From the NCBI GenBank assembly GCA_963978905.1, contig OZ022260.1:43855551-43919550 (forward strand): a DNA stretch of 64,000 nt. The letters run 5' to 3'. Source of the DNA: Trichostrongylus colubriformis. Its lineage: Eukaryota; Nematoda; Chromadorea; Rhabditida; Trichostrongylidae. Below are positions 26,566 to 57,439 of this stretch, one piece after another (positions within the stretch are counted from its first letter, which is position 1; the number at the start of each line of letters is the position of its first letter). The position numbers and the translations under genes are program-made. The notes beneath the pieces are model-generated. The model was not told the DNA's origin. It searched no databases and saw nothing but the letters and a program-made list of their open reading frames with translations.

Positions 26566-27045
26566 TGACGGCTGCCTGATCTTCGTGGATCATCACGCTC
26601 AGTAGTGATGTTAGGGGCGTTGGAAAATACAAAAAAAGGAAAAGCTAAAGTGTTTTTCGGACTTTTTCCACAAATATTGTATTTCTGACTCTCGACTGGA
26701 CAAAATTACCGCTTGAAGTGAGCATCAGGACAAGTTTCTACTTGATGTTATCACTCAAAATTCGGCAGCACTATTTTTTCCTCGGATGTATGTTTGGCAC
26801 GCGGATTTTGACCTCGGCCTGATGTCGGCCCGCCGCGCGCGGCTACGCCTCGCGGAAGGGTCAAGTTGTTTCAGAGCAGGCTAGTCTGGCAAGTTGCTAG
26901 GCTGTGGCTCTACCACTTTATCGATCAATACGACCATTATTCTGCGTTCGGTATTCTATTATTTCGCTAAATCAGGGTTTTGTTTTTGTTTTTACCTGTT
27001 TTATTGCGATCCGCCCAAAAGGGAGTGGCCACCGCGTGACCTGGG

Positions 27046-27273
27046 GGTGTATATCACTAGGACAAAACCGTCGCGTGGCCGTGTTCTGCACGCGACGGGA
27101 TGGTGCGAGCTATGCGCGCCATATTGGATGGGTCTTGAAGCGATGACACTGCTCTACGCCTCATTCTATGCGTAATCGCTTCAGGACCCAACTAATGCGG
27201 CGCGCATAGCTCGCACCATATCGTCGCGTGCAGAACACGGCCACGCGACGGTTTTGTCCTAGTGATATACACC
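27046..27273. mobile_element. long inverted repeat element (99-base arms, 30-base loop)
   Basis: Positions 27046-27144 and 27175-27273 are near-identical inverted copies (GTGTATATCACTAGGACAAA, CCGTCGCGTGGCCGTGTTC). Partial relatives occur at 1890-2060 and 35950-36090 (GAAGCGAT, TGGGACCC). Two overlapping plus-strand open frames across it are products of the palindrome. Confidence 0.75.
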
Positions 27274-27968
27274 CGTGACCTGGTGACCTCACTGACCGTG
27301 TGTCCCAACCAGCACGCATTTTCCCCCTGCTAGCGTTGCCTTTGTTACCGAAATTTCGTCCACCCTATCTTATCACGATCAACAGCAGCTTCTTTCCTCA
27401 AGTAGTTGCCACCGCTGATCTGCTGTTCAAATCGATGGCATGAGTCGGCCACCTTGAGACTGTGGGTGCCATCTCAGTGCCATCTGTTCTCTACGCGCTT
27501 ACTATTCGTCTCAATGCTCCGCTGAAGGTGTACCCTGCAGTTGTGGGAGGAGCCATCTGCACAGAGATGTAAAAGGAATAGTCAAAATGTTACGAGTGCC
27601 TCCACCCTGGAGAGGTTGTGCTCAATTTGAGGTGCAAAGGCCTGAGCGGAGATGTGCGACTAAGTAACTAGGGGAACTCCGTCAACGATATGGAGGGCAA
27701 ATATGAAGGAGCGCGAGTTAAAATGTTAATTATCCAGTGGAAATGGAAATCTGAATATTGGCAATGTTGTGCCAAACTTCGCCACAGGTTTGCACGGGCT
27801 TTCGATGCGATCATCATACTTAGTATGGTTCGGTCAAGCTTTATAAAAAGAGTCCGTTGCCAGAGTGGCGCCGTTGTTGACGACGGGCATATGATTCTGC
27901 CGCCGTCGACGCTGGTGTCGTAAAGTATGAAGGCGCCCTCATGTCTGATAAGGGCTATCCGATAAATA

Positions 27969-29251
27969 CAGGGTGGCGAATAATTACGTGCGCGCAACTT
28001 TACCTCCGTTTTAATTATTGTAGAATGCATTCGTACATACTTTTTCTTTTTTCTGAGTACTCATTTGTTTCTTATTATTGGTTTGTAGAAAAAAACTTAT
28101 GCTTTACTGGCATGACGAAGAAATGCTCAGGCCCTAACGCGATTGCGCAGTTAGCTGAGGGTGGGATGAAGAGCTTAGCAGTTTCTTCGAGACTCGGCAT
28201 TCCTCTGAGGACTGTCCAAAAGATTGTAGAGCAATTGAAAGTAGAAGGACACATCCCTACCAAACCCAGAAGTGGGAGAAAACGTACAGTGAACACCCAA
28301 CAGGTGTTTGAGATTATTAAGAAAAGGGCTCACCAAAAAGATGGTCTGAGCTTAAACAAGATGGCGAGTCAGCTAAACATTTCTCGCAAATCTGTTCAAA
28401 TGAACTTGAAGAATGAGCTAGGACTCCGTAGTTATCGTCTGTATAACGAAAAAGTTCTTACCGATCAAGCAGAGCAAAATTGGAAGGAAAAATGCAAGAG
28501 GATACGGGAATTTTTCAAAATGCGCCGAATCGAGGACGCCCTTCGGCCTGATGGGAAAATTTTCACCGCTGAAGTGTCTAAAAACTCTCAGAATCATCGT
28601 CAAGTTCTTTGCTCAGCTTTCAAGAACCATCGCAAGCAAAAACTGCCACGAGAAGTCTGTTGCCTGAAAGCTTAATGGTTTGGGGCGGCAACAGTGCCTC
28701 AGGCAAGACCCCTTTGATTTTTATTATAAAAACGTGAAAATTAATGCAGAAGTCTCCCAAGAAGAGATTCTCATGAAAGCTGTGGTGCCCTGGAGACAAG
28801 AACACCTCAATTTTATCTTTCAAAAAGACAAAACACAAGCCTATGGAGCTAAAACAGCGATTTGCTACCTGGAGACCAAAATCGGCCCTTTTTTTGACGA
28901 AGGATTTGTGGCCTGCAAACAGCCAAAATCTGAATCCATTGGGTCTTTCTGTGTGGGGATCCATGAAAGAGCAACTCAGGAGCCCAAATGCAAAGAATCT
29001 GGTAACTTTGCGGAAAGAATTGATCGAAATTCAGTACGATTTAGACGATTAATACCTGCGCCGCACCTTTGATTCCAAGAAGAAACGAATTAACGTCTCT
29101 ATCGAAGGTGATGGTGGCCACTTCGACAATTCTTTGTAATTATAGGATGTTATCGCCTATTGTTTTATAAAAATAACTTTCTTCAAAAATTCGTAAGCAA
29201 ACAATAGAATTCGAAAGCTTTTTTTGGCGCACGTATTTATTCGCCACCCTG
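27969..29251 (+). mobile_element. decayed Tc1/mariner-family transposon with TA target duplication
   Basis: Terminal inverted repeats CAGGGTGGCGAATAATTACG (left) and the reverse complement of CGTATTTATTCGCCACCCTG (right) are each bounded by TA. The 1283-base length is normal for an autonomous mariner-type element. The transposase inside is broken by several frameshifts. Confidence 0.88.
28112..29052 (+). pseudogene. mariner-family transposase, frameshifted, catalytic triad damaged
   Basis: The N-terminal half is open from the ATG at 28112 to 28675: two helix-turn-helix segments (SRLGIPLRTVQKIVEQLK and LNKMASQLNISRKSVQ) with a GRKRTV linker, then the start of the DDE domain (PDGKIFTAEVSKN, first Asp present). 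After 28676 the frame shifts at least three times: LMVWGGNSASGKTPLIF, then VKINAEVSQEEILMKAVVPW, FQKDKTQAYGAKT (second Asp kept, canonical context QQDGAPAH lost) and SQNLNPLGLSVWGSMKEQL (third Asp replaced by Asn). It would have bound its TIRs and cut DNA; this copy is inactive. Confidence 0.85.
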
Positions 29252-29734
29252 TAGAATGATAAAGGTTGTATTGGTCAGACAGTGAATATTTATGAACGCA
29301 TCATAAATGCGATAAAAGATGAAAGGTTTTCACTGTAATCGATCGATGTACTTCAAAGTGCTCAAATGCAAAGTGTACCTAGTAACGATATAAGGCATAA
29401 TGCTTTGCGGTAATGACGCCATAAAAACACCATCACACAACAATAAAATCATAGCCACGGCAGAGAATACCTAGGGCAATGGTATAGCGTAAGATGTAGG
29501 TTAATGCTGGTAACAAAGAAAAAAAATAAATAAACTCATAGAATGTTCTGAAGAGTGCATAGGGGAGAGGCTATCTAACAGGTTTATTCTTCAACACTTG
29601 TTGGGGCCGTGATGGCAAAGTGGAATAATGATGGATGACATATTTTTTCGCACCGCGAGATATTATCGGACGCGTTTTCAGCTCAGTGTCAGGCATGGTT
29701 CGCTATCAATAATACACTTTATTCAAATTTTCAG

Positions 29735-42139: not shown

Positions 42140-42255
42140 GGTTTCGGAAGTGTAATGGATTAGCACATATGCCCGGAAAGCATGGCGAGCCGGGTTCGAG
42201 TCCCGTCCGACACCGAAGCTTTTGCCCATAAGTCAGCATACTGTAACAACAAATT
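42140..42255 (+). repeat. tRNA-derived SINE-like unit, best-preserved core
   Basis: The core 42145-42217 has a near-complete tRNA layout: GTTTCGG against CCGACAC (6 of 7 pairs), D-arm GTG/CAC, anticodon stem TATGC/GCATG with loop CCGGAAA (anticodon GGA if read as a tRNA), and T-arm GGG TTCGAGT CCC. The tail GAAGCTTTTGCCCATAAGTC, AGCATACTGTAACAAC is that of the SINE family. A C in place of U33 and the shared tail argue against a working tRNA-Ser. Confidence 0.6.
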
Positions 42256-42917: not shown

Positions 42918-43367
42918 ATGATCAGCATTAAAGGAATTGTCCACGGAAAATGCGATTTTGTGCTACCCATACGTTTATGTTGTATTTGCCTAATGTGGGC
43001 CTCATGCAAAATTTCACGCGAAAAAATGCGAATCTGGCTGAGATACAGCACCACAAAGTGCGGTCCCAGTGGGCGGGGCCTAAGAGAAAAGCCTCGTCCC
43101 GTCGTCCGCCGTGGTCGGAGACGCATTGTAGGAGCAGAAAGTTTCGTAAACAGTCCCACTCTCCCTTCCCAACGGCGGCGGACCACGGGACGAGGGTTTT
43201 ACTCTTAGGCCCCGCCCATTGGGACCGCACTTTGTGGTGCTGTATCTCAGCCAGATTCGCATTTTTTCGCGTAAAATTTTGCATGAGGCCCACATTAGGC
43301 AAATGCAACATAAACGTATGGGTAACACAAAAACGCATTTTCCGTGGACGATTCCTTTAATGATCAG
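42918..43367. mobile_element. 450-base palindromic MITE with about 205-base arms
   Basis: The arms begin TGATCAGCATTAAAGGAAT and end inversely ATTCCTTTAATGATCA, and pair through TTTATGTTGTATTTGCC, AAAATTTCACGCGAAAAAAT and AGATACAGCACCACAAAGTG to a loop near 43120-43170. Long open frames exist on both strands purely because of the palindrome. Diverged relatives are at 44090-44375 and 53205-53480, with a fragment at 58890-59000. Confidence 0.82.
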
Positions 43368-53204: not shown

Positions 53205-53480
53205 GCTTTTATGTTAGCCATGTATTTATGTTGTATTTGCCTAATGTGGGCTGCATGCAAAGTTTCACGCGGAATATGTAAATCTGAGTAAGATACAGCT
53301 TAACAAAGTTGCGACCGGGTGGGCGGTATCTTAGCCGGCCGGGTGGGCGGTATCTTATCTGTATCTTAGCCGAATTCTCACTTTTTCGCGTGAAACTTCG
53401 CATGCGGCCCACATTAGGCAAATACAACATAAATATAAGGATAACAAGGGAACTAAATTTTCTGTGGGCGTTTTTTAAGT
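53205..53480. mobile_element. shortened relative of the palindromic MITE at 42918
   Basis: Left arm TTTATGTTGTATTTGCCTAAT and right arm ATTAGGCAAATACAACATAAA are inverted; GGTGGGCGGTATCTTAGCC is tandemly duplicated in the loop (53317-53360). Confidence 0.65.
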
Positions 53481-54860: not shown

Positions 54861-54944
54861 TTTTCAGAGGGTATACAATACCGCTCACATTTTTTGAAAA
54901 ATCGACGGTGGGCGACGTATTAAACGGCACAAACCGTCGCACCG

Positions 54945-55718
54945 TCATAACTTCGTTGAAAATGGATAAAATGGGAAAAAATTAGAAGCGTTAGATTCGT
55001 CTCGATGTGTCGAGATGTCTAATTTTGATAAGTAGGTCACCAGCTTCTCAGTAAAAGCTGCAAAGATTTCTTTAATTTTACCCTTAGGCAAGACTCTGAC
55101 GTGTTTCGGCTTGCATTCGCATGCTCGATTGTTACTCGCCCATGTTCTGCACAAACATCATTTTTTAGTGATTTATCTTCAAGTTTCAGGATACTTTTCA
55201 GCACGAAGTTTCCACGACATTTTCGAGAGTTTTTGAGCTCATTTCGTCAGAGTCGATGGACAAATTGAGGAGAAAACTCACCTATCACAGACTACTGGTT
55301 ACGTACTGCAAGAATTACCTTGACTTCCGAATTACAGGCAAGCGCTTCTTCTGTGATGAGGCTTCAAACATCGGTGAACGGCATACTTTGAACGCTGAAT
55401 AATTCCTCTTCTCTTTCCTGAAATAACATTTTGATCAATGAAAATCGCATAAGGTTTTCGAATACAACATCCTACACTTCCAGAAAATGAAAGCGGCATT
55501 CAAACAATGCACAGAATCATGAATTTAAAAAGAGTGTTAATTGCACATGAAAGTATGAATGTGGACGTACACTAATTAATTTCAAACGAAACTTATACTG
55601 ATGTATTCAGTGTCAAAAGTGCTGTTCATCGGTATAAAGATCATCTCACTGCGAAAGTTTTGAACTTTTACCATTGTTCTTGTATTCTTTTCAAGCGTTG
55701 TCGGCTCCAACGCCGCAT
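54945..55718 (-). CDS. left copy of an inverted duplicate small gene (about 115 aa)
   Basis: Exons 55718-55672, 55417-55319 and 55146-54945 join in phase from an ATG. Donors are TG followed by GTAAAAG and CAAG followed by GTAATTC; acceptors are TTATTTCAG and TTTGTGCAG. The product starts MRRWSRQRLKRIQEQW, continues KEKRNYSAFKVCRSPMFE, SSQKKRLPVIRKS, a cysteine pair (ACECKPKHVRV), and KEIFAAFTEKLVTYLSKLD. It is basic, with no signal peptide. Exons 1 and 2 are identical to the right copy. The C-terminus differs: a small deletion relative to the right arm removes the early stop and extends the frame by about 21 codons (STHRDESNASNFFPFYPF). I recognise no family. An antisense frame across exon 2 and intron 2 is also open and is listed separately. 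Confidence 0.5.
55190..55402 (+). CDS. antisense open frame in the left arm, alternative gene candidate
   Basis: After an acceptor-like AAGTTTCAG, 70 codons are open to a TAA and look protein-like: DTFQHEVSTTFSRVFELISS, ESMDKLRRKLTYHRLLVTY and KNYLDFRITGKRFFCDEAS. It lies antisense to exon 2 and intron 2 of the minus-strand model; the mirror copy is on the minus strand at about 57042-56823. Only one of the two overlapping models is likely to be real. No upstream exon was found, so I rank it below the spliced model. Confidence 0.3.
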   Translation, partial: DTFQHEVSTTFSRVFELISSESMDKLRRKLTYHRLLVTYCKNYLDFRITGKRFFCDEASNIGERHTLNAE

Positions 55719-55953
55719 GCTGACCCCTTAATTACTGTGCAACGCTCAGCACAGATGAGGTCAGTAATACCTCGCGGTATTATCACATCACATGAATGCA
55801 CACTATTGACCTTCAGGACCGCCTACTATTCTTACTCAGTGATCCCCACATTCCCCTTCTTTCCAGGAGACTGGAGGGCCAGATTGCTTTAATAACCGGT
55901 CGGAAGGAAGCAGTAGCACACAACTGACTACGAACACACGTTTGCAAATGTTA

Positions 55954-56033
55954 CATGCACCAGAGGATTCGAACCCCTACCAATCATTACTTCATGAGTG
56001 CCTGCGAACAGCGGTCACTCGGCCAGCGCCATC
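55954..56033 (-). repeat. class II tRNA-like stretch in the spacer of the inverted repeat
   Basis: On the minus strand TGGCCGAGTGACC fits an A box, GGGGTTCGAATCCTC a B box with a five-pair T-stem, and the spacing leaves room for the long variable arm of Ser/Leu tRNAs. The acceptor ends ATGGCGC and GGTGCAT pair at only 4 of 7 positions and no anticodon stem is convincing. A degraded tRNA pseudogene or SINE head. Confidence 0.5.
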
Positions 56034-56507
56034 CAACCGCTCGATAAGATAACTCTGTTTCCGAGCATAGTGATAACGAACAGAGTGTGTTGGCATATGG
56101 AAACTCTCACGTAGATTTCAATGAACAGTACCAAACCGACTCGCTAGAACAAGTGCGCTGCGGAATTATCACGTGAAGCTTTCAACATAATCGTGTTTCT
56201 GGTACCAATGCACACAATGCAGAAATTACCCATTCAAATGATAAATACACAAAGTAGAAATTCGTAACCACCGATCTATGATCAAGTCATACATCACACT
56301 ATACATATAGTATATTCGAAGAAATTCTTTATAAAAAAAACTACCATATAAGCCAAATTGTACAAGGCTGCGAACCAGTTCTTTTGGTTAGAAGGGACAG
56401 TAAGCGGTTTTGAAGGTCAATAGTGTGCATTCATGTAATGTGATAATACCGCGAGGTATTACTGACCTCATCTGTGCTGAGCGTTGCACAGTAATTAAGG
56501 GGTCAGC

Positions 56508-57217
56508 ATGCGGCGTTGGAGCCGACAACGCTTGAAAAGAATACAAGAACAATGGTAAAAGTTCAAAACTCTCGCAGTGAGATGATCTTTATACCGATGA
56601 ACAGCACTTTTGACACTGAATCATTAGTACAAGTTTTGTTTGAAATTAATTAGTGTACGTCCACATTCATACTTTCATGTGCAATTAACACTCTTTTTAA
56701 ATTCATGTTTCTGTGCATTGTTTGAATGCCGCTTTCATTTTCTGGAAGTGTAGGATGTTGTATTCGAAAACCTTATGCGATTTTCATTGATCAAAATGTT
56801 ATTTCAGGAAAGAGAAGAGGAATTATTCAGCGTTCAAAGTATGCCGTTCACCGATGTTTGAAGCCTCATCACAGAAGAAGCGCTTGCCTGTAATTCGGAA
56901 GTCAAGGTAATTCTTGCAGTACGTAACCAGTAGTCTGTGATAGGTGAGTTTTCTCCTCAATTTGTCCATCGACTCTGACGAAATGAGCTCAAAAACTCTC
57001 GAAAATGTCGTGGAAACTTCGTGCTGAAAAGTATCCTGAAACTTGAAGATAAATCACTAAAAAATGATGTTTGTGCAGAACATGGGCGAGTAACAATCGA
57101 ACATGTGAATGCAAGCCGAAACACGTCAGAGTCTTGTCTGAGGGTAAAATTAAAGAAATCTTTGCAGCTTTCACCGAGAAGCTGGTGACCTACTTATCAA
57201 AATTAGACATACCATAG
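56508..57217 (+). CDS. right copy of the inverted duplicate small gene (94 aa)
   Basis: Exons 56508-56554, 56808-56906 and 57079-57217 give 94 residues and a TAG. Splice sites are the same as in the left copy, and the split codons (TG/G for tryptophan, AG/A for arginine) rebuild correctly. Differences from the left copy are limited to exon 3: RTCECKPKHVRVLSEGK against RACECKPKHVRVLPKGK, and the stop after SKLDIP. The start ATG directly follows GGGGTCAG, which could also be an acceptor, so an upstream exon in the spacer is not excluded. Both copies keep an open frame, which suggests recent duplication or maintained function. Confidence 0.5.
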
Positions 57218-57439
57218 GTCGTTGAATTTGACACATTGAGACGAATCTAACGCTTCTAATTTTTTCCCATTTTATCCATTTTCAACGAAGTTATGACGGG
57301 GCGACGGTTCGTGCCGTTTAATCCGTCGCCCACCGTCGATTTTTCAAAAAATGTGAGCGGTATTGTATATTCACAGTTTCTACCCTACCCTTACGCCTCT
57401 TGCGCTAATCTCGGACAAGGCTCGAACTGACAATGCATC

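Follow-up and report, generated by a model that had tools for sequence, protein, structure and literature searches.

A palindromic gene-like pair in Trichostrongylus colubriformis is very probably one copy of a many-copy foldback DNA transposon inserted at TA

Results

Structure of the inverted repeat

The window analysed in this study is a stretch of 64,000 nucleotides from contig OZ022260.1 of Trichostrongylus colubriformis, whose genome assembly comprises 331 Mb in 52 contigs. An earlier note on this DNA, made from the letters alone, described a near-perfect inverted repeat of about 2.5 kb, and this is present at a level beyond chance, with its arms lying within 54872-55836 and 56390-57369. 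The arms align in three collinear blocks of 589, 232 and 140 nt with complementarity of 98, 96 and 97%, respectively. From end to end they are 96% identical with gaps counted and 97.8% without gaps, with 21 mutual differences, and near the outer end a 16-nt indel and substitutions distinguish them. The longest tract identical between the two arms is of 392 nt. The inner blocks are 553 nt apart, which corrects the spacer of 594 bases given before. The outer limits are the TA at 54874-54875 and the TA at 57366-57367, both presumed target-site dinucleotides as judged from the TA flanks, so that the element proper spans 54876-57365. It consists of a left arm (54876-55836, plus strand), a single-copy spacer without recognised product (55837-56389; 92% identity between copies) and a right arm that is the reverse complement of the left one (56390-57365, minus strand), both arms being delimited by the arm alignments. 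The left outer terminus, CAATACCGCTCACATTTTTTGAAAAATC (54876-54904, plus strand), is the presumed transposase-recognition end, given the conservation of these 29 nt. In general terms, the element is built of inverted arms of about 965 nt around a spacer of about 590 nt.

A three-exon frame in both arms

The palindrome had been read as a duplicated three-exon gene, and the frame with GT-AG borders is present in both arms as described. In the right arm it encodes 94 aa (56508-57217, plus strand; exons 56508-56554, 56808-56906 and 57079-57217), and in the left arm 115 aa (54945-55718, minus strand; exons 55718-55672, 55417-55319 and 55146-54945). We judge both to be chance frames. Exons 1 and 2 are indeed identical between the arms, as is intron 2. 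This identity is not special to the exons, because it forms part of the 392-nt identical tract, which includes intron sequence.

Across the 56 arms of 28 copies, the gene model is intact in eight and broken in 48. All four splice dinucleotides are retained in 41 arms and lost in 15, the start codon reads AAG in 19 arms and ATA in two, and codon 6 is TGA in 16. The majority sequence of the 56 arms is open throughout the frame, and many copies have an open exon 3 according to a search of the own genome for exon 3, in which 150 of 882 candidate places were scored, not each of them being checked for lying in an element, so that a host gene as source of the frame retains some probability. The copy in the window is the only one among 28 with both arms open, and no other was found among 50, which could be how the frame caught a reader's eye. 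In the widened set, 8 of 96 arms are intact; this count drops every arm that is gapped anywhere within the exons, among them the window copy's left arm, though the first set shows that arm to be open.

The selection test, with expected counts taken from the arm's own mutation spectrum, gave a nonsynonymous to synonymous ratio of 1.02 in the 56 arms (148 versus 57 variants) and of 1.05 in the 96 arms of 50 copies (242 versus 88 variants). Stop-creating variants numbered 20 against 17.4 expected in the former set, and 26 against 26.0 in the latter. Per exon, the ratio was 0.69 for exon 1 (20 versus 10, few variants), 1.17 for exon 2 and 1.08 for exon 3. Mean diversity was 0.082 in the exons versus 0.080 in the whole arm, and intron 2 was slightly more variable (about 0.10 versus 0.075-0.095 in other parts; 28 copies). 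Taken as a spliced coding gene, the frame shows no purifying selection.

Frames of this length also arise in shuffled sequence. Among 60 dinucleotide shuffles of the right arm, 55 contained a spliced frame of 94 aa or more in three or fewer exons when loose splice signals were accepted, and 12 did so when the signals were stricter; the best spliced frame of the real right arm reaches 111 and 100, respectively. The homologue search proposed for the 94-residue product returned nothing in a set of 5.8 billion proteins, with three shared 5-residue words required, and this set does contain strongylid entries (Ancylostoma, Haemonchus, Cooperia, Strongylus and Heligmosomoides). No Pfam match rose above the cut-off, the nearest being CxC1 with E 0.038, and none was found in PDB or in viral contigs. 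The three-exon gene seems to have been read by chance from DNA that does not code for protein.

Copies in the genome and their insertion sites

In its own genome the element has at least 132 matches at E<=0.001, with 40 of 1092 candidate places scored. Twenty-eight of 30 retrieved loci are full-length copies of 2492-2542 nt, the window copy included; this first set holds the best matches to the window copy. In a second set, from the exon-3 match list plus longer copies, both ends were found in 23 of 28 regions and TA on both sides in 22 of these 23. The 22 of 28 regions that exceeded 1,700 nt and had at most three mismatches at both ends were added to the first set, giving a widened set of 50 copies with the window copy among them. 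In all 30 retrieved loci the left end reads ACAATACC directly after a t, and TA stands on both sides in 28 of them. Outside the TA the flanking sequence differs from copy to copy and is unlike on the two sides, without the 8-10 bp target-site duplication of the Mutator type. As in foldback elements, the arms of about 965 nt fill most of the approximately 2.5 kb in the 28 copies, and insertion at TA together with conserved inverted termini agrees with Tc1/mariner. From the element ends we infer that TA is duplicated upon insertion. The 23-nt element end had no matches in viral_contigs or genome_contigs, which says little as these are virus and prokaryote collections.

Some copies are unusually long (L036-L039) and might carry a transposase; frames of at least 80 aa are listed for L036-L038, one of which, in L037, resembles a reverse transcriptase as judged by eye. 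A tandem array with a unit of 146 nt lies inside a foldback-element copy (L036:2818-4873). A more diverged relative (L042:1188-3036), 67-80% alike in the aligned pieces, has one recognisable conserved end, suggesting the existence of older subfamilies.

Conservation along the element

When the 28 copies were oriented by their spacers, identity between copies was 92.0% for left arms with left arms, 91.9% for left with right arms and 92.0% for spacers. A seemingly fast-evolving spacer (66.6% mean identity) proved to be an artefact of oppositely oriented copies. The outermost 29 nt are perfect in 46 of 56 arms, and this is the figure to use, since the 84 of 96 arms of the widened set is biased by selection on the ends. 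For the other 29-nt windows of the arm, the widened set has a mean of 19.3 perfect arms out of 96 and a maximum of 50. The outer end is thus the part kept by selection, as would be expected of a putative transposase-recognition end. Its conservation also suggests that insertion was recent relative to the age of the source lineages.

Within the spacer, a stretch at about 55880-56060 (minus strand) has what we take to be a resemblance to the A and B boxes of tRNA genes. It was rejected as a tRNA-like feature: no Rfam match appeared up to E 1, its folding energy is ordinary (z -0.86), and of the 28 copies, 19 contain the B-box pattern and one the A-box pattern that was tested.

Homogenisation of the arms

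The two arms of a copy resemble each other more than they resemble the arms of other copies, with 96.5% identity within versus 91.9% between copies in the first set and 96.1% versus 89.9% in the widened set (46 pairs). Ten thousand permutations of the partners gave at most 91.4%. For 32 of 46 copies, the opposite arm most similar to an arm is the one in its own copy, and the arms are sisters on the tree in 19 of 28 copies of the first set and in 26 of 46 of the widened one. Left arms are equally close to other left arms and to right arms, which indicates concerted evolution of the arms. The longest tract identical between arms exceeds the shuffled expectation in 14 of 28 copies (p<0.05, uncorrected), and in five, the window copy with its 392 nt included, it was unmatched by any of 500 shuffles. 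Gene conversion is the likely cause of this concerted evolution. In 9 of 28 and 20 of 46 copies the arms do not pair as sisters, which implies that homogenisation is partial, or that recombination between copies occurs as well.

Other repeats in the window

The window also contains a separate mariner-like element at 27967-29253, with 27-nt inverted termini (TACAGGGTGGCG..., 96%) and 1233 nt between them. A frame encoding helix-turn-helix domains (Pfam HTH_23) overlaps it, and among the relatives of this frame are proteins named as transposases in Ancylostoma ceylanicum and Strongyloides papillosus; the coding part of the element is divided between two or more frames. Its ends differ from those of the foldback element. 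A smaller palindrome at 42926-43362, with 168-nt arms that are 95% complementary and 101 nt apart, carries mirror-image chance frames on both strands and looks like a miniature inverted-repeat element. Short inverted repeats at 27045-27274 (103-nt arms at 92%) and 53212-53446 (63-nt arms at 90%) are perhaps miniature elements too. At 42141-42214 (plus strand) there is an Rfam tRNA match of 33.3 bits against a gathering score of 29, where ARAGORN reports none; it is possibly a tRNA relic or a tRNA-derived repeat.

Discussion

We regard the stretch at 54876-57365 with high confidence as a non-autonomous foldback DNA transposon inserted at TA, one of many copies in the genome. The superfamily is probably Tc1/mariner, with the TA site as the sole character behind this assignment. 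Foldback transposons are an established kind of element, and Tc4 and Tc6 of C. elegans are of this foldback, palindromic form. These elements share with the one described here their occurrence in nematode DNA, a body made mostly of two long inverted repeats, and little or no coding capacity. Tc4 targets TNA and our element TA, and the likeness is one of overall architecture.

Among the elements in the literature, bandit of the hookworm Ancylostoma caninum is a Tc1/mariner element that is 1,285 bp long, has termini of 32 nt and encodes a transposase of 342 aa; it has in common with our element the TA target site, the inverted termini and a strongylid-type host, whereas the arms of ours measure about 965 nt and no transposase is recognised in it (PMC2041818). 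Tm1 of root-knot nematodes, a Mutator/foldback family, is likewise a nematode foldback family with some members lacking a transposase, but its 9-bp target duplications and Mutator-type transposase set it apart from an element at TA (PMC3169594). Tetris, a foldback element of Drosophila virilis, is also non-autonomous, devoid of conserved frames and with a transposase source that was not found, and shows signs of repeat homogenisation within copies; in contrast to the TA of our element, it has target duplications of 8-10 bp and tandem repeats within its arms (PMC4079207). A literature search by title found no paper about the present foldback family.

The earlier note offered two readings of the palindrome, one of them a mobile element carrying a host-like spliced gene. 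The mobile part stands, as the copies are dispersed; the gene does not, being broken in 48 of 56 arms, neutral, without homologue in the collections searched and at chance level. We nevertheless weighed whether the transposon acquired or evolved a genuine spliced gene, still expressed from some copies, that in the window among them. In favour of this are the open frames and intact splice sites of both arms of the window copy, the eight intact arms of 56, the open majority sequence and the many copies in which exon 3 is open. Against it, the ratios of 1.02 and 1.05 and the neutral rate of stops are joined by AAG starts (19 of 56 arms), TGA at codon 6 (16 of 56) and lost splice dinucleotides (15 of 56), by equally long chance frames in 12 to 55 of 60 shuffles, and by the failure to find a homologue in a protein set holding strongylid proteins, with the Pfam CxC1 hit (E 0.038) below the cut-off. 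We consider a captured gene very improbable. A bolder variant, in which the window copy, unique among those found in having two open arms, is a newborn gene pair, draws its support from the open frames and from nothing else.

The other reading, a recent inverted gene duplication under constraint, fails on both counts, since this is a dispersed element and its exons are without constraint. A host gene duplicated in place would account for near-identical arms and open frames, but units of this layout (arm, spacer, arm), all with the same ends, stand at many unrelated sites, and this origin must be regarded as exceedingly unlikely. Long palindromes are a known assembly hazard, which speaks for a false palindrome; the 21 differences between the arms of the window copy, and the recurrence of the structure at independent sites with ends at TA, speak against it. 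The worry is answered by the many separate sites that show arms and spacer between different flanks, and we give an assembly error next to no chance.

For the foldback transposon, the following mechanism may be proposed. A transposase of the Tc1/mariner type, encoded elsewhere in the genome, would bind the conserved outer ends, and the element would move by cut and paste and insert at TA. Gene conversion, either between the two arms within a copy or in the course of post-excision repair, would keep the palindrome near perfect. RNA transcribed across the element would form a long hairpin that could enter small-RNA silencing. In this sense, the long double-stranded RNA that had been predicted from transcripts of the arms is plausible. 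In C. elegans, read-through transcripts of Tc1 fold at the inverted repeats and feed RNAi, as described in a review (PMC3878927). A further idea, which we put forward as rather doubtful, is that the arms are continually matched by conversion, each copy thereby remaining an almost perfect hairpin of about 965 bp, and that read-through from nearby genes makes the family a standing source of double-stranded and small RNA.

With these results a false gene pair is struck from the list of candidates. They also carry a caution, namely that chance spliced frames in foldback arms appear twice in the palindrome and mimic conservation. The partial concerted evolution of the arms is the one feature worth following, and we regard it as mildly interesting: the homogenisation of long arms within copies offers a clean case for gene conversion from arm to arm, and small-RNA silencing in a parasitic nematode could readily be tested on the many long hairpins.
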